A stretch of DNA of 64,000 nt, from assembly GCA_020253445.1 (NCBI GenBank), contig JADCBP010000001.1, forward strand, positions 1 to 64,000. Reading direction: 5' to 3'. Position 1 is the stretch's first letter, and every line of letters begins with the position of its first letter. Below are positions 14,944-62,620 of this stretch, piece after piece. The position numbers were made by a program, and so were the translations under genes. The notes beneath the pieces were generated by a model. It ran no database searches, was not told the origin of the DNA, and saw nothing but the letters and a program-made list of their open reading frames with translations. The DNA is from Methylobacterium sp. Its GTDB lineage: Bacteria; Pseudomonadota; Alphaproteobacteria; Rhizobiales; Beijerinckiaceae.

Positions 14944-17541
14944 TCAACTCATCACGCGTTTGACGGCCTCGATCAGCTGCTTGAGGCTGAAGGGCTTGGG
15001 CAGGAAATCGAATTGCTGGCCCTCCGGCAGGTTCTTGCGGAAGGCTTCTTCGGCATAACCGGATACGAAGATCACGCGGATCTCCGGCTTGCGCGCGCGC
15101 AACTCGCGCAGCAGGGAGGGGCCGTCCATCTCGGGCATCACCACGTCGGAAACCACCAGATCGATATCCTCCATCGCATGCGTTTCGAGTTGATGCAGCG
15201 CATCCACGCCGGATTGGGCCTCGATCACGGTATAGCCACGAGAGCGCAAGGCCCGCGCGCCGAAATTGCGCACGGCATCCTCATCTTCCACCAGCAAAAT
15301 GGTGCCAGTGCCGGTGAGGTCCGCGATGGGCACCTTCTCGACAACCGCCGCAGCCAGAGCAGGGGCCTGCCCCTCGCCAGCCATCTCGGGGGCGCCGTCC
15401 TCGCCGGCAGCAGCCATATCCGCGCCGGCGGGCAGCAGGTCGCCCGCGCGGGGCACGTGCCGGGGCAGGAAGATGCGGAAGGTCGTGCCCTTGCCCAATT
15501 CGCTCAGGCAGTCGATCGAGCCATTGGATTGCGTGACGAAACCATAGACCGAGGAGAGGCCCAGGCCCGTGCCGCGCCCCACTTCCTTCGTGGTGAAGAA
15601 TGGCTCGAAGATCTTGCGCCGCACCTCCGGTGACATGCCGGAGCCGGAATCGGTGACGTCGACGAGCACGTAATCGCCTCGCTTCAACCCCTCGACATTG
15701 TAACTGTCGGTCTCCGCAGCAGGCACATTGGAGGTGCGGATGGTGAGGCGACCGCCCTCCGGCATGGCATCGCGCGCATTCACCGCAAGGTTGATGATCA
15801 TGTTGTCGAAGGAAGCCGGGTCCGCGAAGGTCGGCCAGAGATCGCGACCGTGGCGGATATCCAGTTCCACATTCGGCCCGATCGAGCGCTTCAGCATCGC
15901 ATTGAGATCACCGAGCCGGTCGCCAAGATCGATGGTCTCGGGCAGCAGGGTCTGCTGGCGCGAAAAGGCCAGCAATTGTCGCACGAGGCTCTTCGCGCGG
16001 TTGGCGGAATTCTTGATCTGCATCACGTCCTGATGGCGCGGATCAGTCGCGCGGAAGTTTCCGGCCAGCAGGTCCGCGAAGCCGACAATCGCCTGCAGAT
16101 GGTTGTTGAAATCATGCGCCACGCCACCGGCGAGCTGGCCGACAGCGTTCATCTTCATGGATTGGAAAAGCTGTTCCTGAAGCTTTTTTTCATCCGTTGT
16201 TTCAAGAGCATAGGCGATCACGGCCTCCTCGCTGCGCTCGCTCGCGCCAGAGGGCACGAAGAAGAAGCGCGCCGAGCGACCCACCTCGCCTGCCAGCGAC
16301 ACATCCACCGGCTCGCTTTCGCCGGTGCCGTGACGGGCCATGGTGAATGCCGCCTCGATGCGGGGGCGATCGGCCGGCGCGATCAGGCTCAGCAGATCGC
16401 GCGGGCCGGCGGTCTGCTGGTTCGGCAGGAAACCCGCGAATCGCGCATTGGTGCTCTCGATGCCGCCAGACCGGCTGAGCGTGGCGATGGCGAAGGGCGA
16501 GGTGTTGAAGAGCCGCGCGAAACGCACTTCGGCATCGCGCAGGCCCTCGGCGCCGCTTGCCTCCCCCGAGCGGTTGAGCACCAGCGTGCGTGACACGCCG
16601 GCCGTGCCATCAGCCGCGAAAGCCACGCGGTGGAGCAGCCGCACCGGCAGGCGCTGTCCCCCCTTCCGCTTGAGGTCGAGGTCGATCGTCTCGGTGCGCA
16701 CCGCACCCGGCTGCCCCTGCACATGCGCGAGCAAAGCCTCGCCGCCGGAAGCCACGATGTCGCGGATCTCGAGATCACGATCGGCGATTTCCGCGAGGTC
16801 GTAATCGAGCCAGTCGGCGAGCGTGGCGTTGAGGTAGAGAACACGCCCCTCGGGGCGCGCGGAGAAGAAGCCGGCCGGCGCGCTGTCGAGATAGGAGATC
16901 GCCTGCTGGAGTTCCTGAAACTCGTTCTCATGCTTCTCGCGGTCGCGGGTGATGTCGGTCAAGCGCCAATGCACAGCCGTGTCGCCCTCCGCTCGCGAAA
17001 GCGGCCGGACGCGGACGCGATACCAGCCATAGCTGGCACCACCCGTAAGGGCCGGCACGAGACGGATGATCTCGGTCGCGCCACGCCCTTCGCGCGCAGC
17101 CTGCGCAAGGCGATAAACAGCCTCGCTGACATCCGAGCCCCCGGAGAAAAGGCGCTCCACGGGGCGGATGCTTGCCGCGCGGCCCGGCACGCCGCCGCAG
17201 AAGGTCTGGTAGGCGCCATTGGCATAGAGAACCTTGCCCTCGCGATCGAGCACGAGCTGGCCATCCTCCGCACCATCAACGATGGCCTTGGTGATATCGT
17301 TGCGGGCGGCGCGCCCGGCAAATTGCAGGATGCCCACCGCATAGAGGAAGGCAGCCAGAACGCCGAGGGCCGCAAACCCGGCGAGGAAAAGCGTCAGCAC
17401 GGTCGCATGATGGCGCATGTCCAGCACCGCGAGCGACAGCACCGAACCCACCACGACCAGGGTGACCAGCAAAAGCAGCACGGGGCTGCCATGCCGCTGG
17501 CTGCGGTCGATCGGCGGGCCGGCGGGGCTCTCCTTCAGCAT
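14944..17541 (-). CDS. cckA: Hybrid sensor kinase CckA (CtrA phosphorelay)
   Basis: CckA is the bifunctional membrane kinase/phosphatase that feeds phosphate through ChpT to the cell-cycle and motility regulator CtrA. The 865-residue protein has two N-terminal TM helices ([20 protein letters not shown] and a second after DMRHH), then two or three PAS-like domains. The dimerisation helix has the phospho-acceptor His in [14 protein letters not shown] (about residue 473). The HATPase motifs are [16 protein letters not shown] and [16 protein letters not shown]-terminal receiver holds the acceptor Asp in [12 protein letters not shown] (about residue 797). ATG at 17541 is preferred for its AGAGGAGG; a longer frame starts at 17589. 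It sits directly downstream of flhB. Confidence 0.92.
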
Positions 17542-17602
17542 GCCTCGAAAACCTCCTCTGCCCGGCGGATTCGCGGGGGCACTTCTCATCCAGCCTTCTG
17601 GC

Positions 17603-21035: not shown

Positions 21036-21054
21036 ATGGTTAAGATCAGGTAAA
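21036..21054 (-). promoter_or_regulatory. Putative CtrA box upstream of flgB
   Basis: On the minus strand the sequence reads TTTA-N7-TTAACCAT. It matches the CtrA consensus TTAA-N7-TTAA with one mismatch and contains the full half-site TTAACCAT. It lies 59 bp upstream of the preferred flgB start, at the front of the operon that leads toward cckA. In Caulobacter, early flagellar operons are CtrA-activated; direct function here is inferred. Confidence 0.5.
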
Positions 21055-23343: not shown

Positions 23344-26300
23344 TCAGCCCGGACCGGTTGCCTGGGGAAGCGAGGATTGCCGCTGGTCGCTCGCGCCGCG
23401 CACCGGCCGCGCCTCGCTCCCCGTCTCCGGATAGCGTTTGCGGTAGGAGGCGAGGAATTCCGTGAGGGTATCGGCATTCACAACCTGGCGGGCCGCCTCG
23501 CGGAAGCCCTGCGGGTTTGAGTAATTCTCCAGCGCGATCATATTGAAGGCTCCGGCATCGGAGGTCTTCGCCATTTTCGGCAGGTATTTGGACCGCAGCC
23601 GATCCAGTGACATCGCCTCTTCTGCGAGCACATAGGCGAGGCCCGCGCGCAGCACATCAAGGCGCTGCTGCTCGGTGAGCGCTTCCTCGTGCTGCCAGGC
23701 ATCGCCGAGCATGCGCTCATAGGATTCACCGGCCTCGCGCCAGGCCTTGCCCTTCCAGTGGATGTCGGCGCGCAGGCGCTCCACGTCGTTTCCTGTCTCG
23801 TTGGCGAGCAGTTCGATGGCGAGCCCGGTGCGGAACACCTCACCCAGCGCGCGCGCTTCCAGCAGCGTGCGGGCGCGTTTCAGTTCGGGCGGCAGGCTCG
23901 ACAGGCGCGTTTCGCCGAGCACCGTCAGCGCCTTCACCGGCTGGCGGTTCTGGAGATGCATGACCGCGAGGCGGGTTGCCACGATGGAGCGCGCCACGCC
24001 TTCGAGCCGATGCTTCACCTGATGCTCCAGGATTTCCGCCGCCTCATTCACGAGGTCGAGGTCGAACAGGCGATCCGCGAGGCGACGCGCGATCTCGTCG
24101 CCGCGGCGACCGGCCGGAACGAGGGTACGGAACTCCTGATAGATGGCCAGCGCCTCCACCTTGGAGATCTTCTGCTGCTCGGCATCCAGGAACAGGCTCT
24201 CGAACCGGCGGCCCATCGCCTCTTCGAGACGCCGGGCAATCGGATGGTTCGGCATGAGGCCGGTCGCTCGCTGGGAGGTGAGGAAGGCTTCGCGCCAGCG
24301 CCCTTCGGCGGCATAGATCTCGCCGAGCCGGGCGAGAGACTTCACTTCGGTCTCGCTGTGGCGCCAGATGGCGGTCAGCGTCTCGAATTCGGCCTTCGCC
24401 TCCTCGGGCGTGATCTTTTGAGCGGCGAGACCCGCTGTCGCCCGGCCATAGCGCGCCTCCGCCTCGATGCGGCGATCCATCGACCGGGCAGCCTGACTGT
24501 AGGCCGTGAAGGCATCAACGGCACGCCCCTCGAACTCCGCGAGGCGGCCAGCGAGCAACTGCAGCAGGCCGTTGTCCCGGAACGCCGAATCGACGCGATC
24601 GAAGGCGTTGAGCTGTTCGCGGGCAAAGACCGGATCACCCGCCTCGATGGCGGATTCAACAACGTAGCGGCGCAGATCGCCCTGAAGGCGATCGGGATAG
24701 CGGTCGAGCGCCTCGATCCCGGCCTTGAAGCCGCTGACCGCCTGCGGATAGCGCATGGATTTCGCATCCACGAGTGCCTGCAGCAGGCGCTGCTCCGGCT
24801 CCTGCGCAAGCTGCGGCTCGTTGAGCAGGCGCGTCGCCTCCGCCAGCCGTCCCATCATGGTCGCGGCAAAGGCGCGGGCAAACATCACGTTCTTCTGTGC
24901 GCCGGCCTCGGGATCATCGGCTGCGAGCACATTCAGCACGCCCTCGGCTTCCGGATAGGCCTTGTGCGCGAGATAGGCCTGAGCAAGGCGAAGGCGCGCC
25001 TGAGGGCGGGTCACACGCGGCGCCTCGGCTGCGGCGCGCAGCAGGCCGCGTTCCAGCAGGCGCAGCGGCTCGCGGGCGAGCTTGTCATATTGGTCAGAGT
25101 CAATCAGCAGCGCCTTGCGATCCATCGCGGCCGCCGGCTCATGGGGAGGCAGCGACGAGAGATTGAGACGGATCTCGTGGCTCAGCAGCACGCCATTGTC
25201 GCCGCGGGTGAGCGTAACCGCCTCGTCCAGCGGCAGGGCGGCGAAGCCCGCGAGCGTGCGTTCGATCACCACTTCGGCGAAGCTCTGCGCCTTGGGGCTC
25301 GCGAAAGCGCCTTCGGCCAGCGGCACGATGGCGAGCTTGCCGCCGGTCTGCGGGTCTTCGATGGTGATGAGGCGCCCCTGGCCCTTGAACACGGCTTCGA
25401 GCGCATCGCGGCCCTGCCGATCGAAAACGCGCTGCAGGCGAATCGGCGCACCGGCCACTGCCTCCGGCGTCACCTCGCTCTTTCCGCGCTGCACAACGAT
25501 GTCGCCGCCATCGCGCATCAGCCAGAATTGTCCGTCGATCTTGGGGGTCAGGCGCAGGACGGTCGCCTGCGGCAGACGCGACATCTGCACGCCTTCAACA
25601 TGCCTCTTCATCTCCGGCGGCACGGTGGGCATGCCGGGGGTCTGCGGTGTTTCCACCACCACGAGCAGCGTCGGCCCGCGCTGGAGAATGGCGAAAGGCG
25701 CCTTGCCAAGGCCACCAAGGCGAAGGGCGAATCCTTCGGGATCACGCCCCTGCTCGATCCGGAAATCGATGGCATCGCCCGTGCTGGCGGATAGCAGCGT
25801 CTCCGGCGGCACGGGCTCGGGGCTTTTCGCCATGCGCGGCAAGGTGGCGGCGGATGGTGCCGGCCCGACCTGGGAAGCGGCCTGGGAAGCGGCCTGGGAA
25901 GCAGCCTGGGATGCAGGCTCGGATGCGGGCTGGGCCGGCGCCGCCGGCGCAGGGGCCGAGGCTGCCGGGGCCGGCGCCGCCGCTTCGTTGAGGCCCTCGG
26001 CAAGCGCGCGGCCATCGATGCGCGAGAAATCCAGCGTGAAGCTGTCATCCTCGCGGAAGCCGCGCACCTTCATGCCTTCGGAAACGCGCATGCTGACCGT
26101 GAGGCTCGATCCATCCCGGATGACGCGCACGCCTTCCGCGGTGCCGGCAAGGCGCGAGCGGGCGAGCGTTTCGGGCAGTTCGAAATCGCCCTCGAACACG
26201 AGGGTCACCTCGCCATCGCGCTCGTCATAGGCGATCGGCGCGGAGCGGGGCATGGTGAAGATGGCGCGGCGGAAGCGGGGCGCATGGGCGACGCGCAGAT

Positions 26301-26799
26301 CCACCGCACGCTCGACCTTCTTCTCGACCTCGACGCGGCGGGCGCGTTCTTCCGCCACGCGGGCGCGACGGACCAGCTCGTCGATGACATCCTGCGGCAG
26401 CGGCGGCGGCAGGCCTTGCCAGCGCGGAACCATCAAATCCAGGAAGATGCGCTCGCCGGCCGATTTGAGATCATGCCGGTAACGGCCATTGAGACCGATG
26501 CGGATCGAGCGGCCATCCGGATCGAGGCGGGCGACGCCGACATAATTCGGCACTTCCAGCGGCAGCTTGTCGGGATTGAGCGCAATGCTCTGATCGAATT
26601 CGATGATCAGCACCGAATTCGCGGCGCGCACCTTTGCGCCCACCGGCGCGTCGAAGGTGAAGACCAGCCGGCCGAAGCCCGACTGCTCGGAGCCGGCCAC
26701 CTGCCCGCTGGCCGCAAGAGCGGACCCATGAACCAGAAACGGGAGCAGCACGAGGCCAGCCATCCTGGCGAGGAATTTCGAGAAACGCGAACGCAACAC
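23344..26799 (-). CDS. Large exported TPR protein of unknown role in flagellar block
   Basis: I do not recognise a named family for this ~1,150-residue protein. An N-terminal signal peptide is visible (SRFSKFLARMAGLVLLPFLVHGSALAAS). Next comes ~250 residues of beta-rich sequence (FGRLVFTFDAPVGAKVRAANSVLIIEFDQSIAL, a pattern like AMIN-type domains). A low-complexity Ala/Pro/Ser linker with an AASQ repeat (residues about 305-335) follows, then a second beta region. From about residue 600 the protein is helical with TPR-like repeats (RLRLAQAYLAHKAYPEAEGVLNVLA, SLARLGEIYAAEGRWREAFLTSQRA). GTG at 26799 gives the best signal peptide; the frame is open to ATG 26874. It is the last gene of the minus-strand fliL-fliM-(coiled-coil)-MotE-like series. 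A periplasmic, motor-associated scaffold role is a guess. Confidence 0.7.
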   Translation of the reverse strand: MLRSRFSKFLARMAGLVLLPFLVHGSALAASGQVAGSEQSGFGRLVFTFDAPVGAKVRAANSVLIIEFDQSIALNPDKLPLEVPNYVGVARLDPDGRSIRIGLNGRYRHDLKSAGERIFLDLMVPRWQGLPPPLPQDVIDELVRRARVAEERARRVEVEKKVERAVDLRVAHAPRFRRAIFTMPRSAPIAYDERDGEVTLVFEGDFELPETLARSRLAGTAEGVRVIRDGSSLTVSMRVSEGMKVRGFREDDSFTLDFSRIDGRALAEGLNEAAAPAPAASAPAPAAPAQPASEPASQAASQAASQAASQVGPAPSAATLPRMAKSPEPVPPETLLSASTGDAIDFRIEQGRDPEGFALRLGGLGKAPFAILQRGPTLLVVVETPQTPGMPTVPPEMKRHVEGVQMSRLPQATVLRLTPKIDGQFWLMRDGGDIVVQRGKSEVTPEAVAGAPIRLQRVFDRQGRDALEAVFKGQGRLITIEDPQTGGKLAIVPLAEGAFASPKAQSFAEVVIERTLAGFAALPLDEAVTLTRGDNGVLLSHEIRLNLSSLPPHEPAAAMDRKALLIDSDQYDKLAREPLRLLERGLLRAAAEAPRVTRPQARLRLAQAYLAHKAYPEAEGVLNVLAADDPEAGAQKNVMFARAFAATMMGRLAEATRLLNEPQLAQEPEQRLLQALVDAKSMRYPQAVSGFKAGIEALDRYPDRLQGDLRRYVVESAIEAGDPVFAREQLNAFDRVDSAFRDNGLLQLLAGRLAEFEGRAVDAFTAYSQAARSMDRRIEAEARYGRATAGLAAQKITPEEAKAEFETLTAIWRHSETEVKSLARLGEIYAAEGRWREAFLTSQRATGLMPNHPIARRLEEAMGRRFESLFLDAEQQKISKVEALAIYQEFRTLVPAGRRGDEIARRLADRLFDLDLVNEAAEILEHQVKHRLEGVARSIVATRLAVMHLQNRQPVKALTVLGETRLSSLPPELKRARTLLEARALGEVFRTGLAIELLANETGNDVERLRADIHWKGKAWREAGESYERMLGDAWQHEEALTEQQRLDVLRAGLAYVLAEEAMSLDRLRSKYLPKMAKTSDAGAFNMIALENYSNPQGFREAARQVVNADTLTEFLASYRKRYPETGSEARPVRGASDQRQSSLPQATGPG

Positions 26800-26921
26800 A
26801 GCACAAGTCCCGATACAGGAGCCGAACGGGGAAGGCACGTCGTTGGCGGGGCCGCAACAGGCGATCCCCTCCAACCTTCTTTCAAGATAAGGCCACCATG
26901 CCTAAAGATCGCTTAATCCAC

Positions 26922-27752
26922 TCACCGCGTTGGCGGTGAAAGCCGAGGCAATTCGCCATCGGCCGCCGGCGCGGCAACCTCGCTCACATTCTGGGCCTGC
27001 CGAGCCAGCGCGACGGTGAGGCGCTCGGCGGCGGCGGGCTCCATGGCAGCGAGGATTTCAGCCACCTTGCGGGGGTTCATCTGCTGCACGAGGTCCATCA
27101 GAACCTTAATATCCAGCCGGTCGAAGACGCGGGCGGCTTCCTTCGGCTTCATGGTCTCGTACATGGTGACGAGCGGCTTGAAGCGCTGCTTCGGATCGTT
27201 CCTGGCGGCCTGGCCGGCATCGAACTGGTTCTCGAGCGTGCGAAGCTGCCCGATCTTCTCGTCGAGCTTGCGCTCGGTGGTGCGCAGCAGGCTGTCGCGC
27301 ATCTCGATCTCGCGGTTCTTCGCCTCGATCTCGGTGCGGCGAGCCTGAAGCCGTTCGAGAATCTCGCGCTCGGCCGGGCTCGCGGCCTGGCCGCGCTCCG
27401 GTATCTGCGCCGGCGGCGGGTGCACGCGGGTGCCTTCCGGATCCGGCTTGATCTTCGGCGCGCCGGAGGCCGTAGGTGCCTGAGCCTGGGCGCCGGCGGC
27501 CTTGGAATCGGCTGGCCTGCCCTCGGCGTCCCTGGTTTCAGCATTGCCGGTGGAGCCGGTGATGATCTGGTTGTCAGCCTGAGCGCCGAGACGGGCCCTC
27601 TCGATGGAACGGGCGAAGCGGTCGCCCGCCGCCAGACCGAAATCCGCGATCTGGGGCAGCGGCCGGTTGTCAAGCGCGACCGAGAGCACCCGGATCGTGA
27701 GCAGTGAAACCAGCCCGAAAATGAGGACGGGAATCAGCCGGATGCGGGTCAT
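26922..27752 (-). CDS. MotE-like flagellar motor chaperone (MgtE-N type domain)
   Basis: The 276-residue protein has an N-terminal TM/signal-anchor segment (IRLIPVLIFGLVSLLTIRVLSVAL). A Pro/Ala-rich spacer follows, then a long coiled coil (EREILERLQARRTEIEAKNREIEMRDSLLRTTERKLDEKIGQLRTLENQF). The C-terminal domain reads RFKPLVTMYETMKPKEAARVFDRLDIKVLMDLVQQMNPRKVAEILAAM, which resembles the MgtE N-terminal/FliG-like fold of rhizobial MotE, a periplasmic chaperone for MotC. Its start overlaps the upstream coiled-coil gene by 4 bp (ATGA-type), so the two are coupled. It lies between that gene and the TPR gene. Function in torque generation is inferred from MotE. Confidence 0.75.
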   Translation of the reverse strand: MTRIRLIPVLIFGLVSLLTIRVLSVALDNRPLPQIADFGLAAGDRFARSIERARLGAQADNQIITGSTGNAETRDAEGRPADSKAAGAQAQAPTASGAPKIKPDPEGTRVHPPPAQIPERGQAASPAEREILERLQARRTEIEAKNREIEMRDSLLRTTERKLDEKIGQLRTLENQFDAGQAARNDPKQRFKPLVTMYETMKPKEAARVFDRLDIKVLMDLVQQMNPRKVAEILAAMEPAAAERLTVALARQAQNVSEVAAPAADGELPRLSPPTR

Positions 27753-28246
27753 GCCACGTTTTCCTGCTTGGCCTTCTCGGCGTTGCGGTTGGCAAGCGCC
27801 TGGGCCGCCGCGAGAGTCTGGGCGATTCGCGAAGCCGAGCGAATGGCCGGCTGGGTATCCATCACATGCTGGGAGAAGGCCGCGGCCGGGTCGCGCGCGC
27901 CCTCCACCACCGGGCTGTCGAGGGCAGTGGAGACGATGCGGCTGATGCGGTTCAGCACATCATCGCCGGAGCGGATCTGGTCCTCGAGATCGGACGCGTA
28001 GCGCTCGGCCACGCGGAGGCGCTCGCCGAGGGTGCGATCGCAATCGCCAAGGGTATGCTTGAGCGCGTCGATCGCGCGCTCGGCACGGTCTGTGGCCATC
28101 GAGAGATCGTTGATGGTCTTGCGAATCACCGTTTCGTCGGCGCGCATGGCACGCAGGCGGCGATCGAGCAGGACGCAGTAGCCGATGGTGACGACGAGCA
28201 GGCCGCCAACAATGAGTTCAATCATCAAACCGAGTTGTCCGGACAT
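27749..28246 (-). CDS. Small membrane coiled-coil protein (DUF6468-like) in flagellar operon
   Basis: The 165-residue protein has one N-terminal TM helix (LGLMIELIVGGLLVVTIGYCVLLDRRLRAM) and then a mostly helical cytoplasmic part rich in charged heptads (TINDLSMATDRAERAIDALKHTLGDCDRTLGERLRVAERYASDLEDQIRSGDDVLNRISRIV). It resembles small proteins found beside fliM/motE in Hyphomicrobiales, which I recall being grouped as DUF6468; this label is from memory. It sits 4 bp downstream of fliM and overlaps the MotE-like gene. ATG at 28225 (MIELIVGG) is an alternative start. The role is unknown. Confidence 0.65.
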   Translation of the reverse strand: MSGQLGLMIELIVGGLLVVTIGYCVLLDRRLRAMRADETVIRKTINDLSMATDRAERAIDALKHTLGDCDRTLGERLRVAERYASDLEDQIRSGDDVLNRISRIVSTALDSPVVEGARDPAAAFSQHVMDTQPAIRSASRIAQTLAAAQALANRNAEKAKQENVA

Positions 28247-28250
28247 GGAT

Positions 28251-29396
28251 TCACCTGTCGCGCCTGACTGAGACGCCTTGTTCGAAGGCTGCGAGTGTCG
28301 TTCTTGACCGTCTAAGAGGTTTCGCGATCTGGATCGCCATATGGTCGCCGATGCGGCCGATCTTTCCCTGCGTGACCATGAGGTCGCCGCAGCGGATCGT
28401 CACCATCGGGTCGCCGCGCACGTCGAAGAGCAGCGTGTCACCGACCTGCAATTCGAGCACCTTGCTGACAGGCAGGCTGGTTTCATGCAGCACGGCATCG
28501 AGATCGAGTGTCGCCTGCCAGATCTCGGAGGCGAGATGGCCTTCCCAGATGTGGTCGCGGCCGAGCTTCTCGCCCATGTAGGACTGGAGCAGCAACTCGC
28601 GGATCGGCTCGATCGTGGCATAGGGCAGCAGGATTTCCACCCGCCCGCCGCGACCCTCGAGGTCGATCGCGAGCGCGATGAGGATCGCCGCATTGGCAGG
28701 ACGCGTGATGGAAGCGAAGCGCGGGTTGGTTTCGATGCGCTCCGGGATAAACTTCACCGGCGAGAGCGGCTGGAAGGCCTGCTCGGCCTCCTGCAGAACG
28801 ATATCCAGCAGGCGGCGAACGAGGTTCACCTCGACAGTGGTGTAGGGCCGGCCCTCGATGCGGAAATTGGAGACGCCGCGGCGGCCGCCGAGCAGCACAT
28901 CCATCACGAGATAGATGAGATCGCCGTCGATCGTGATGAGCCCGTAATTCTCCCACGGCTCCGCCTTGAAAACCGCGAGGATGGTCGGCAGCGGCAACGA
29001 GGAGACGTAATCGCCGAATCGCACGCTCGTCACATCATCGAGGCTGACTTCCACATTATCCGAGAAGAAGGAGCGCAAGGTGGTCGTGAGCGTGCGAACC
29101 AGACGGTCGAACACGATCTCGAGCATCGGCAGACGCTCGTAGGAGACAACCGTCGAATCGACGATGGCGCGCACGCCATTCTGCTTCGACTGGTCGGCAT
29201 CCTCGGGGTCAAAACCGAAGATCGTGTCCACCTCTTCCTGGTCGAGGAAAAGGCCGGTGCCAAGATCGAGTTCGAGGCCCGCTTCCTTGGACTTACCCGA
29301 ATTCGCCGCATCGGCACCCTCGAGGCCGGTATCACCCAGCGCGCGAGCCCATTCGTCGGCGAGATCATCCTGAGAAGTATCCGGCGTATCAGCCAC
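28251..29396 (-). CDS. fliM: Flagellar motor switch protein FliM
   Basis: FliM is the C-ring protein that binds CheY-P and controls rotation direction. From GTG 29396 the protein has 381 residues. The N-terminal ~60 residues are acidic and variable. The CheC-like middle domain includes LPMLEIVFDRLVRTLTTTLRSFFSDNVEVSLD and FGDYVSSLPLPTILAVF, and the C-terminal SpoA domain contains LPVSKVLELQVGDTLLFD. GTG at 29396 is chosen over ATG 29414 because AAGGAG lies six bases before it. The gene follows fliL by 31 bp and precedes the coiled-coil gene by 4 bp. A canonical EIDALL-type CheY-binding peptide at the extreme N-terminus is not obvious; QEEVDTIFGF near residue 53 may serve instead. Confidence 0.92.
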   Translation of the reverse strand: MADTPDTSQDDLADEWARALGDTGLEGADAANSGKSKEAGLELDLGTGLFLDQEEVDTIFGFDPEDADQSKQNGVRAIVDSTVVSYERLPMLEIVFDRLVRTLTTTLRSFFSDNVEVSLDDVTSVRFGDYVSSLPLPTILAVFKAEPWENYGLITIDGDLIYLVMDVLLGGRRGVSNFRIEGRPYTTVEVNLVRRLLDIVLQEAEQAFQPLSPVKFIPERIETNPRFASITRPANAAILIALAIDLEGRGGRVEILLPYATIEPIRELLLQSYMGEKLGRDHIWEGHLASEIWQATLDLDAVLHETSLPVSKVLELQVGDTLLFDVRGDPMVTIRCGDLMVTQGKIGRIGDHMAIQIAKPLRRSRTTLAAFEQGVSVRRDR

Positions 29397-29427
29397 TGTC
29401 GTCTCCTTGACCATTCAGGTCAAAAAC

Positions 29428-29952
29428 TCACTGAACCAGCACGTCCTTGAAGAGGATGGCCTCGATGCGCGCGGGATAGATCGATGCGTTCACGCGGCGC
29501 ACGAGTTCTTCCTTCAGCCGGTAAAGCCCTGCCGAACCCTCGAGATCCGTGGGTCGCAGTTCGCGCAGGAAAATCTGGAAATTGTCGAGCACGCGCGGCA
29601 TCAGCGGCTGGATCTCGGCGATGATCTTCTGATCCTCGACCTCGAGAGCGAGCTTCAGGCGCAGATAGGCCGGGCGCTCCTGCCCGGGCGCACCCGCGAG
29701 GTTCACGGTGATTTCCGGCAGATCGAAGAAGAATGCCTTCTTCTTCAGCTGCACAGCCTTGTCGACCTCCGCAGCCTTGGAACGCTGCCAGAAGTAATAG
29801 CCGCCGCCCGCACCCGCCGCGAGGAGGGCCGAAACAATGGAAATCACAATGAGTTTCTTGCGCCCTCCGGAGCCGGCAGCCTTGCCGTCTGCGAGGATTT
29901 CATCAGGCTTTGCGGTGTTCGCAACCATCGGATCACCCTGGAACCGGGACAT
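29428..29952 (-). CDS. fliL: Flagellar basal body-associated protein FliL
   Basis: FliL is a single-pass membrane protein that surrounds or stabilises the stator. The 174-residue product has a TM helix (LIVISIVSALLAAGAGGGYYFW, residues about 33-55). Its periplasmic FliL domain includes FFFDLPEITVNLAG, LRLKLALEVEDQKIIAEIQPLMPRVLDNFQIFLRELRPTDLEG and the C-terminal IEAILFKDVLVQ. Two starts are possible: ATG 29952 and ATG 29928 (MVANTAKPDE, preceded by GGGTGAT). It is the first gene of the fliL-fliM-coiled-coil-MotE-TPR series. A TTAACCAA half-site lies about 110 bp upstream. Confidence 0.92.
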   Translation of the reverse strand: MSRFQGDPMVANTAKPDEILADGKAAGSGGRKKLIVISIVSALLAAGAGGGYYFWQRSKAAEVDKAVQLKKKAFFFDLPEITVNLAGAPGQERPAYLRLKLALEVEDQKIIAEIQPLMPRVLDNFQIFLRELRPTDLEGSAGLYRLKEELVRRVNASIYPARIEAILFKDVLVQ

Positions 29953-43522: not shown

Positions 43523-43565
43523 GCTGAGCTCAGAGCCTGATTTACACTCTGACCTTAACACTTCC

Positions 43566-45560
43566 TTAACCAGCCGACGTCCGTTTCCGTCTGGCTTGGT
43601 TAATGTTCGCAAGCATCCCGTTCGGCTTCATCTTGTGAACGAGCAAGGGCAGCAGTGAAATGACATCCATGGGTCGGGCAAAAACATAGCCCTGCACGCC
43701 ATCGATTCCATAGGCGCCGAGGGCGGCCAGTTGCTCCTCGGTCTCGATCCCCTCGACAATCACTTCCAGATCGAGATCGCGGGCGATGCCGGTGATGCCA
43801 CGCATCATCGAGCCGCTGCGCTGGGAGGTATCGATGGAGGTGGCGAAGGAGCGGTCGATCTTGACCTTGTCGAGCGGCAAGATCTCCAGATAGCTCAGCG
43901 ACGAATAGCCGGTGCCGAAATCATCCAGCGCCGTGCGCACGCCGATGGCGCGCAGGCGCTCCAGCGTTTCGATGACAAGACCGGAATCGTCGATCAGGAT
44001 CGATTCCGTGATCTCCAGAGTCAGGCGGTGCGGCGCGATGCCGGAACTCTGCAGGCAGGAGCGGGCAATCGAGACGAGATCGAGATCACGACGGAACTGC
44101 TTCGCCGAGAGATTAACGCTTACGCCCACATCGACGGGCCAGCTCGCGGCGGCATGGCAGGCGGTCTGCATCGCCCACGTGCCCATCAACGTGATGAGAC
44201 CGGAAGCCTCGGCGATCGGGATGAACACGCCGGGAGAAATGAAGCCGCGCTCCGGATGCTTCCAGCGCATCAGCGCTTCCACCAGCGTCACGCGGCGGGT
44301 CCTGGGGTTCATGATCGGCTGGTAGGCCAGCGACAATTCGCCATTCTCGATCGCGCGGCGAAGATCCTGCTCGAGCAGGATGCGCTCGTCATATTTCGCG
44401 CCGAGTTCGGCCGAATAGACGCAGACTTGGTTCTTGCCGGATTCCTTCGCCTGATAGAGCGCGAGGTCGGCATGCTTCAGCGCCATTTCCGGCGCCAAAC
44501 CCGCGCCCGTGGCGATGCCGATGCTGGCGCCGGCGCGCAGGCGCACATTGCGGACAAGGAAAGGCAATGTGAGGTCGTTCACGACGTCGGTCGCCAGCGC
44601 CATTGCCATGACAGCATCCATGCGCGGCGTGATGATCAGGAATTCGTCACCGCCGATGCGGGCCACCACGTCATCATCCGTGAAATGGCGCGTGATGCGC
44701 TGCGCGGCTTCCCGCAGCAATTCGTCGCCCATCGTGTGACCGAACATGTCGTTCACATGCTTGAAATTGTCGAGGTCGATCGAGATCAGCAGGAAGGGCT
44801 TGTCGGCCGAATGCCACTTTTCCATCTGCTCCATCAGCGCATAGCGGTTCGCAAGACCGGTCAAGGCGTCGCGCTTCGCGAGCATTTCCAGCTTGCGCAT
44901 GGTCTGCAGGCGGGACACATAGACCTCATGGATGCTCCGGACGCTCGAGAGCGTTGCAAGCAGCGTGAAGCCAACGGCGATGCCGATCAGCAGATAGGCA
45001 AGCTCGCCGCTGAAGATCAGCCCGAAGATGAAGGTGATCGACACCAGCGCCATCTGGATCTGGGTAATGTAGGGGCGCGAGGTGTTGCGGCCGGAAACGC
45101 CGCCCAGATATCCCATGGTCTGCGCCACACCGAGAATCGAGGCCGCCTGATAGGGATGGGCAAAAACGGAATAGGCCCCGAACAGGCCTACCGTGGCGGC
45201 CGTGCTCCAGGCACCCAGCAGCGCCATCCGCTCAAACTGGCGTTGCACCGCCCGATCCTTTAGCCCGCGCGCCTTCTGGTCATAAAGGCGATGGCTGAAC
45301 CAGCGGAAGCCGTTGATCACAAACAGCAGGCAGGCCAGTCCGAGAATGATCGGGTCACCACTCAAGAAATAAGCGCTGAGGATGATGCCGTTGATGATCA
45401 TCATGCCAAGGATGACGGCCGAGGGTGTACCATACAACGCCTCGATCATGCTTGCATAAAAGGAATCGTCATTCTCGGGTGAGGGATTCAGCTGAACCGC
45501 GAACTTCTCGGGCGCATCTGGCATTGCGTTCGATCCTTGCTCGCCTTCCGCTGCGGACAT
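43566..45560 (-). CDS. Membrane GGDEF-EAL c-di-GMP protein
   Basis: The 664-residue protein combines ~6 N-terminal hydrophobic segments (residues ~40-220, MASE-like) with a diguanylate cyclase domain and an EAL phosphodiesterase domain. The cyclase motif RIGGDEFLI (about residue 303) is intact. There is no RxxD inhibitory site five residues before it (TDDD instead), so product inhibition may be absent. The EAL domain has LVEALMRW (about residue 427), NLSAKQFRR, LEITES and DDFGTGYSSLSYL, and VEGIETEEQ, so it looks catalytically complete. It may set c-di-GMP for the motile-sessile choice. It is a single gene with ~850 bp of non-coding sequence upstream. Confidence 0.9.
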   Translation of the reverse strand: MSAAEGEQGSNAMPDAPEKFAVQLNPSPENDDSFYASMIEALYGTPSAVILGMMIINGIILSAYFLSGDPIILGLACLLFVINGFRWFSHRLYDQKARGLKDRAVQRQFERMALLGAWSTAATVGLFGAYSVFAHPYQAASILGVAQTMGYLGGVSGRNTSRPYITQIQMALVSITFIFGLIFSGELAYLLIGIAVGFTLLATLSSVRSIHEVYVSRLQTMRKLEMLAKRDALTGLANRYALMEQMEKWHSADKPFLLISIDLDNFKHVNDMFGHTMGDELLREAAQRITRHFTDDDVVARIGGDEFLIITPRMDAVMAMALATDVVNDLTLPFLVRNVRLRAGASIGIATGAGLAPEMALKHADLALYQAKESGKNQVCVYSAELGAKYDERILLEQDLRRAIENGELSLAYQPIMNPRTRRVTLVEALMRWKHPERGFISPGVFIPIAEASGLITLMGTWAMQTACHAAASWPVDVGVSVNLSAKQFRRDLDLVSIARSCLQSSGIAPHRLTLEITESILIDDSGLVIETLERLRAIGVRTALDDFGTGYSSLSYLEILPLDKVKIDRSFATSIDTSQRSGSMMRGITGIARDLDLEVIVEGIETEEQLAALGAYGIDGVQGYVFARPMDVISLLPLLVHKMKPNGMLANINQARRKRTSAG

Positions 45561-46349
45561 TACGGCCCTCGTTTCTTAACAATTCGTTCCAAGGGGCGGG
45601 GACACATGGTATTCTTCAAAAATAACAGAGCTTTCCCGCTGATTGTCGATGCTGCTTGGGCTGCATCTCGATCAAACACATATCAATCTCTGGTTGTATT
45701 TTTATGAAATTATTCCAGAGTTTCGCGACAGGTGTCGCCAGCCGGCGAAAAATGTAACGGCGGCACCCTTAACCGCTCGGTCGCCTTTTCCCGGGAGATG
45801 TGCATTTGTGCAAAGGCAGGATTAGACCGGATGGCGCATGAGCCATGCAACCGCGCCAGCCAGGCTTCCGGAATTGCCCGTCCACGCGACCGGATGAGGG
45901 CTCCAGACCAGGGAGGAGGAAGCCGGCAGTTCCTTCCGCATGGTTTTCCTTGCGCAGGCTATGGCGGGTCCGGGCACTCCGCCCGGTGAGGCCGGTGACA
46001 TTGATATCATTGAAATCCGCCATCACAGGGACGCCCATTGCGACAGTCGCGGCGAGCAGCGGCGCCGTCTGGATGGTGAGCGAGCGAAAAAGGGGTGAAC
46101 TTCGCGAGGCCCGCCGACCATGAAATTTCCATGAGTTTGGAAAGCCCGGCTTAAGGCTTCATTAAGGGTGTCGGTCTTCTAGTTTTCCGGCCGCCCCATC
46201 CACGGCGCGCGCGACCGATCAACTTCGCGTGATGTGATGCCGAGGTCCAAAACCGGCCTCATTTCGCGCGCACTGAAAAAAAGGGCTTGAGAATTTCGGG
46301 TGACTTTTCGCTCGACGAAGTGTTTCCCGTCGAAGAAAGAGCCGCCACG
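45561..46349. other. Long gap with no supported gene
   Basis: About 790 bp lie between the divergent GGDEF-EAL and OpgC genes. The stretch 45561-45770 is AT-richer (CTTAACAATTC, then TATCAATCTCTGG...) and probably carries the GGDEF-EAL promoter. Several short open frames (for example minus strand 46038-45769, containing MADFNDINVTGLTG) show no recognisable domain and no good ribosome binding site. The 46130-46200 part is again AT-rich, ahead of the OpgC leader. Confidence 0.5.
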
Positions 46350-60666: not shown

Positions 60667-60897
60667 GACCTCCCCCGCCGGGGCCAGGACTTTCCTGCCC
60701 CGGCTTTTCTGTTCGCTTCCGTCAAACATGGTTCACGAGTTCTTTTTTGTTAAGGTTATCAAATTTAACCAAGCCTTAGCCGCTTGGCGTGCATCTTCCT
60801 TCCAGAAAAACCACCGCGCCTGGCCGCTTTCTCCCGACTGACGGGCTAAAGCGAAAGAGAACTCCAGCCAGCCGGTGTTTCACAGAAGGTGACGCCG

Positions 60898-62517: not shown

Positions 62518-62605
62518 CCTGCCCTGGATTTTAAGGCGGCGTTAGCATTAACAAGCAATCAATCATTTACCGTAAACCCACGCGGCCGCGTCTCCGGCCT
62601 TCCGT

Positions 62606-62620
62606 TTAACACTGATTTAG
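62606..62620 (+). promoter_or_regulatory. Putative CtrA-like site before second flagellin gene
   Basis: TTAA-N7-TTAG differs from the CtrA consensus TTAA-N7-TTAA at one position. It lies about 100 bp upstream of the ATG at 62721, in an AT-richer patch (62530-62640). Chance is a real possibility. Confidence 0.3.

Follow-up and report, generated by a model that had tools for sequence, protein, structure and literature searches.

We analysed a 64,000-nucleotide stretch of Methylobacterium sp. DNA (contig JADCBP010000001.1, positions 1 to 64,000; here called the window), in which three adjacent minus-strand genes at positions 23344–28246 encode a small membrane protein, a MotE-like protein and a very large, putatively exported protein. 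These genes very probably constitute the alphaproteobacterial pflI–motE–motK set, which would supply an E-ring/spoke scaffold for the flagellar stator, with PflI as a membrane-side companion of the basal body and with motK probably driven by CtrA. What the window and the surveyed genomes show directly is the protein families, the order of the genes and the fact that MotK and a single class of FliM proteins occur together. The three genes are as follows:

27749–28246, minus strand: pflI-like gene, 165 amino acids, with a match to Pfam PF20072 (DUF6468) that is the single one in the genome
26922–27752, minus strand: motE/flgY-type gene, 276 amino acids, with an MgtE_N match
23344–26799, minus strand: motK-type gene, 1151 amino acids, with a start context kept in relatives L003–L005 and with profile matches

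An initial annotation made from the window alone had proposed these three minus-strand open reading frames (ORFs), and the sequence bears out their places, including the 4 bp shared by the pflI-like and motE frames (27749–27752). The open frame of motK spans 23344–26874 and comprises 1176 codons when read from a TTG at 26874. A GTG at 26799 is the likely start, preferred because this codon and its context are conserved in L003–L005. The TTG was rejected, as the conserved GTG context fits better. The resulting length of 1151 amino acids agrees with the earlier estimate of about 1,150 for the large protein.

MotK accompanies one class of FliM

We surveyed 150 genomes of the same order, a sample for which at least 90% completeness was requested. 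DUF6468 exceeds its cut-off in 88 of these genomes and FliM in 103. The FliM proteins were divided into a high class (86 genomes at 179 bits or more) and a low class (98 bits or less); one FliM that is found in two pieces (G048, 111 and 100 bits) was assigned to the high class by hand, which brings that class to 87 genomes. Strong MotK profile matches, some of them in pieces, are present in 87 genomes including that of the window, and these are exactly the 87 genomes of the high FliM class. DUF6468 exceeds its cut-off in the same 87 genomes and in one more, G146. PflI was counted by Pfam matches rather than by an iterated profile because the latter drifted to shadow frames of fliM.

Strong MotK matches were found in none of the 16 genomes that have low-class FliM only and in none of the 47 without FliM above the cut-off. 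Three weak TPR matches of the order search (G059, G090 and G118) were left out, as were secondary weak matches in genomes that already have MotK. Homologues away from flagellar genes and in non-motile species, which the initial annotation had named as evidence that would tell against its proposal, were sought across the 150 genomes: no strong MotK match was found in a genome without FliM above the cut-off, and a single DUF6468 gene (that of G146) lies away from fliM.

Gene order was compared in 88 DUF6468 loci (87 fetched loci and the window). The next gene is motE in 85, the three exceptions ending at a contig end, and motK lies downstream in 82, with five of the six misses cut by a contig end; the ORFs are therefore not chance frames. 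The median gap between motE and the longest open frame of motK is 111 bases. The sixth miss (G071, locus L093) has a CobW-like gene after motE and carries motK on another contig. Two further irregular cases are a motK gene 4.5 kb further on (G106, locus L052) and a split motK (G053).

Across 192 genomes of the class, MotK relatives at E < 1e-10 were found in 105, many over most of the profile and several partial, with six genomes whose MotK E value lies above 1e-10 set aside. DUF6468 exceeds its cut-off in 96 of the 192. Both proteins are present in 93 genomes, MotK alone in 12, DUF6468 alone in 3 and neither in 84. Plasmid loci of Sphingobium and Erythrobacter hold MotE and MotK relatives together, and the MotK match there is confined to the TPR part. 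In an Azospirillum locus, a MotK relative with one beta domain adjoins motA–motB. Of nine low-class FliM loci, five contain a MotE relative and none a MotK relative. A row of RebB R-body genes lies downstream of an Azospirillum flagellar/motAB locus (L008, 17044–19254).

Three tandem beta domains in MotK

The large protein has an N-terminus that resembles a signal peptide, followed by beta domains and a TPR region:

26713–26799, minus strand: signal-peptide-like N-terminus, recognized by eye in an alignment with L003–L005
26395–26712, minus strand: AMIN-like beta domain 1 (domain hidden Markov model (HMM), 3.8e-24)
26017–26313, minus strand: AMIN-like beta domain 2 (domain HMM, 3.1e-21; profile match to domain 1, probability 96.9%)
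25465–25773, minus strand: AMIN-like beta domain 3 (domain HMM, 1e-15; profile match to domain 2, probability 97.6%)
24205–25035, minus strand: TPR region, with Pfam TPR matches under the cut-off and a profile match to solved TPR proteins

Taken alone, the window protein has just TPR matches in Pfam, all under the cut-off. A profile of 41 MotK proteins that includes it matches solved TPR proteins, with a best E value of 9.3e-19. The 48 entries that this PDB search lists up to an E value of 1 include no AMIN structure, and the beta part drew no match.

The initial annotation had described a single AMIN-like beta region, which profile comparison corrects to three tandem domains. Three stretches in the N-terminal half of MotK match one another as profiles with probabilities of 94–98%, and for each pair the score is reached by 0 of 100 shuffles. 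An HMM of the pooled domains finds exactly three copies in all 78 full-length MotK proteins of the order and one chance match in 78 shuffled proteins. This model was built from 41 of the tested proteins, the window protein among them, so that the three-copy count follows in part from how the model was made; a triple domain is better supported by the profile matches of the three stretches with one another. The same model finds one copy in the Azospirillum relative and none in the relatives from Sphingobium and Erythrobacter. When compared with AMIN itself, the pooled profile scores 25.5 (probability 36%), where 150 shuffles reach at most 18.0, and domains 2 and 3 taken singly beat all 60 shuffles. 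Residues 440–556 match neither AMIN, for which 27 of 60 shuffles reach the score, nor the three domains.

MotE and PflI are predicted to face opposite sides of the membrane

The smaller proteins each carry one membrane helix and one domain known to Pfam:

about 27672–27740, minus strand: MotE membrane helix, from sequence
after that helix, minus strand: MotE Pro/Ala-rich linker, from sequence
27207–27377, minus strand: MotE charged helical stretch, recognized by eye in an alignment
27006–27164, minus strand: MotE MgtE_N/ARM-like domain (Pfam)
about 28163–28228, minus strand: PflI N-terminal membrane helix, from sequence
27923–28147, minus strand: DUF6468 domain (Pfam PF20072)

The C-terminal MgtE_N match of the 276-residue protein scores 27.0 bits against a cut-off of 25.9, and the domain is found at E values up to 0.01 in 32 of 36 aligned MotE proteins, the window included. 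NCBIfam adds a weak match between MotE and FlbB, a collar protein of spirochaetes, at 26.9 bits (cut-off of that model, 110), and a profile search of the PDB with MotE returned chance-like matches only. Lys and Arg residues are more numerous before the membrane helix in 43 of the 56 MotE proteins counted, equal in 10 and fewer in 3 (two versus one in the window). The part of MotE beyond the helix is predicted to be periplasmic.

The 165-residue protein matches DUF6468 with 84.9 bits (cut-off 26.9). Its helix has no Lys or Arg before it and four after it, and across the order these residues are more numerous after the helix in 55 of 67 proteins and equal in 5. (The charge counts took 67 of 88 PflI and 56 of 85 MotE sequences.) The C-terminal part of PflI is predicted by this count to face the cytoplasm, and PflI is therefore probably not a periplasmic partner of MotE and MotK.

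The name PflI is assigned by gene position, as for pflI in PMC10954123: the window protein is a putative PflI in being a membrane protein encoded between fliL/fliM and motE. DUF6468 matches were also found in Caulobacter vibrioides. The PflI of Caulobacter crescentus is likewise small and has the same gene position. A plasmid search with PflI gave no result.

A CtrA-type box precedes motK

The gap between motE and motK was examined for the CtrA consensus, TTAA-N7-TTAA, and for the layout of CtrA-dependent promoters. The window carries one such site:

26902–26916, minus strand: CtrA-type box TTAAGCGATCTTTAG, which differs from TTAA-N7-TTAA at one position and lies some 100 bases before the GTG

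A box with at most one mismatch is present within the first 150 bases from the motE end in 54 of 80 loci, 13 of them exact, compared with about 7% in shuffles; two of the 82 loci, with gaps above 1 kb, were omitted. The loci share descent, and the 54 therefore do not represent independent events. Equally long segments within motK and motE contain a box in 1 of 80 and 3 of 80 loci, respectively, and other half-site spacings from 3 to 12 give at most 18 loci. Twelve bases past the second half-site there is a TA---T pattern (39, 35 and 35 of 54) that resembles a -10 element, the layout of a CtrA-dependent promoter. The motE–motK gap probably contains a separate promoter of this type for motK.

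With up to one mismatch allowed, the window as a whole contains eight CtrA-box-like sites, where chance would give 1.2 on average. Further box-like sites lie at 21040–21054, 43555–43569, 46151–46165, 60765–60779 and 62531–62620.

The trio belongs to a described kind and is a probable stator scaffold

Related gene sets have been studied in other bacteria. In Cereibacter sphaeroides the order is fliL2–pflI–motE–motA2–motK; its MotE and MotK are located in the periplasm, interact with one another and with MotB2 and go to the flagellated pole, and mutants that lack motK or motE have flagella that do not rotate (PMC10954123). This Fla2 system shares with the window a run of fliL, pflI, motE and motK, a MotE family member and a large protein, in the window putatively exported, with AMIN-like and TPR parts. 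It differs in that motA2 stands between motE and motK and in that its MotK has 652 residues, with one AMIN-like N-terminal domain and the rest TPR-like (PMC10954123), whereas the window has fliM in the run, the motA–motB pair on another contig and a MotK of 1151 residues with three copies of the domain.

Distant relatives of MotK have been proposed in Caulobacter (CC_2058; PMC10954123), and deletion of this gene, also called fssB, yields filaments without rotation, as does deletion of motB (PMC7885107). Caulobacter crescentus CC_2059–CC_2058, compared here by description, resembles the window in having adjacent genes for a MotE/FlgY-type protein with a membrane helix and for a putative AMIN–TPR protein. 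The E-ring protein FlgY of Campylobacter jejuni combines a long helix with an MgtE_N/ARM-like part, and its partner PflA has AMIN and TPR parts (PMC11870540), a plan to which MotE and MotK of the window appear similar. Sinorhizobium meliloti has MotE beside the TPR-rich partner MotC (PMC13023049); the window genome differs in that inspection by eye reveals no motC-like neighbour beside motA–motB, although MotC itself was not searched for. MotE has been grouped with the E-ring protein FlgY, and MotC, MotK and CC_2058 with the spoke protein PflA (PMC11870540, PMC13023049).

Given this published work on MotE, MotK, FssB and the E-ring, the trio is a member of a described kind, and a wholly new module was rejected on the literature (PMC10954123, PMC7885107, PMC13023049, PMC11870540). 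The initial annotation had located the trio correctly and guessed its function well. Its view that a large TPR protein adjoins MotE where rhizobia have MotC is right in substance, and its motor scaffold is most likely a scaffold for the stator; the description of that module as undescribed does not survive (PMC10954123, PMC7885107, PMC13023049). Apparently new are the triple AMIN-like MotK, the CtrA box and the predicted cytoplasmic orientation of PflI, where no literature search was aimed at the first two by name.

By analogy with these systems, MotE would dimerize, anchored in the inner membrane, and build the E-ring. Exported MotK would dock onto MotE through its TPR arm and grip the cell wall through its AMIN-like beta domains, of which there are three copies here. 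The resulting spokes may recruit or open MotA/MotB stators, such that a cell without MotK would assemble a flagellum that does not turn. PflI would be an inner-membrane protein whose coiled coil lies on the cytoplasmic side, near FliM, probably as a membrane-side companion of the basal body and not as part of the periplasmic spokes.

Evidence against the scaffold model and alternative explanations

Several observations weigh against this model. The folds, the dimer, the ring, the contacts and the stator role are carried over from the cited work on other species, and the proposed orthology of the large protein to CC_2058 and MotK rests on gene order, domain plan and the literature. The AMIN similarity of the MotK beta domains is present but weak: domain 1 alone fares no better against AMIN than shuffled columns (5 of 60 reach its score), the Pfam AMIN-like family PF24837 matches 6 of 41 MotK proteins (best E 0.0042), with the window protein not among them, and no match to Pfam AMIN PF11741 in 41 genomes falls at a motK gene. 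Cereibacter MotE is reported to form a disulphide, which the cysteine-free MotE of the window cannot do; among the 56 MotE proteins counted, 41 lack cysteine from the helix onward.

The remaining points against the model concern PflI. Of the 11 loci examined in the low FliM class, 8 (L126, L127, L129, L132–L134, L171 and L172) carry a small gene that overlaps the fliM end. Its product has an N-terminal helix followed by positive residues, and DUF6468 is the top Pfam match in the two such genes scanned, at 22.2 and 21.4 bits and thus under the cut-off. PflI is therefore not tied to MotK. In G146, the DUF6468 gene (L122, 192–638, minus strand) has a methyltransferase-like ORF upstream in place of fliM, its contig ends downstream, and the survey searches found neither FliM nor MotK in that genome. 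A diverged PflI-like protein appears to accompany fliM in both FliM lineages, with MotK alone separating them. We accordingly rejected PflI as part of a lineage-bound trio, given the PflI-like gene behind low-class fliM and the G146 gene away from fliM. That all three proteins form one periplasmic module is doubtful, since PflI is predicted to face the cytoplasm and has counterparts in the FliM class in which MotK was not found.

Among other explanations, it is improbable that MotE builds no durable E-ring and acts mainly as a periplasmic chaperone for the TPR protein, which alone would serve the stator. The first work on MotE did read it as a chaperone of MotC (Eggenhofer 2004, as represented in citing papers). 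However, the stability of Cereibacter MotE requires MotK and not vice versa (PMC10954123), MotE is said to arrive at the flagellum even when MotK or the stators are missing (PMC13023049), though its recruitment seems reduced in the absence of MotA2 and MotB2 (PMC10954123), and MotE occurs in five of the nine low-class loci, where no MotK relative was found.

We also consider it unlikely that the TPR protein is a separate scaffold, MotK-like in plan only, whose TPR and beta parts were joined independently of those in Cereibacter and Caulobacter. The difference in length and domain number from Cereibacter MotK fits such an origin, and a BLAST comparison of that protein with the Caulobacter one found no similarity (PMC10954123). 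Against it stand the MotK profile relatives in 105 of the 192 class genomes, the Sphingobium and Erythrobacter relatives, which adjoin a MotE relative, and the one-domain Azospirillum relative beside motA–motB. Less probable still is that the large protein serves the envelope close to the flagellum, for instance by remodelling the wall or helping to assemble a ring, and not the stator: AMIN domains are known in AmiC and PilQ (PMC10954123), but a Pfam scan found no catalytic domain in the large protein, and deletion of the Caulobacter gene leaves filaments that are built but still (PMC7885107).

Genomic surroundings

Upstream of the trio on the same strand lie two flagellar genes:

28251–29414, minus strand: fliM, the upstream neighbour (Pfam FliM, 202 bits; TIGR01397, 278 bits)
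29428–29952, minus strand: fliL, first gene of the minus-strand run (Pfam FliL, 70 bits)

The run fliL–fliM–pflI–motE–motK ends with the trio and converges on plus-strand fliO/fliP, where the FliO-like gene matches its model under the cut-off. The trio was originally placed at the stop of the flagellar region, which is not the case, as further flagellar genes lie beyond it. Domain scans of the window reveal FlgC-type, FliE and FlhB genes past fliO/fliP, and two other genes are presumably flgB and fliR, named by position. A hybrid histidine kinase gene with PAS, HisKA, HATPase and receiver domains (14944–17589) adjoins flhB; its domain plan is CckA-like. The window also holds a gene for a GGDEF–EAL protein (43566–45560). 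A second MotA/ExbB match in the genome, on contig C1, is probably TolQ.

Implications for the alphaproteobacterial motor

An E-ring/spoke gene set described in a few species accompanies one flagellar lineage across a whole order, and PflI is associated more firmly with fliM than with MotK. Three findings merit a second look: the tripled domain of MotK, the CtrA box upstream of its gene, and a PflI-like gene that follows fliM of either class. A tentative and, on balance, doubtful extension is that the inner part of the alphaproteobacterial motor stays constant, with PflI, coupled to fliM in both lineages, as an anchor on the C-ring side and not only a positioning factor and with a MotE E-ring in both, and that the motor exchanges its spoke partner, which in one lineage of this order would be a MotK that grips the wall with three AMIN-like domains in place of one and is switched on separately by CtrA. 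The triple wall-binding-like domains and the CtrA box bear on where stators are placed and on when the motor is switched on.

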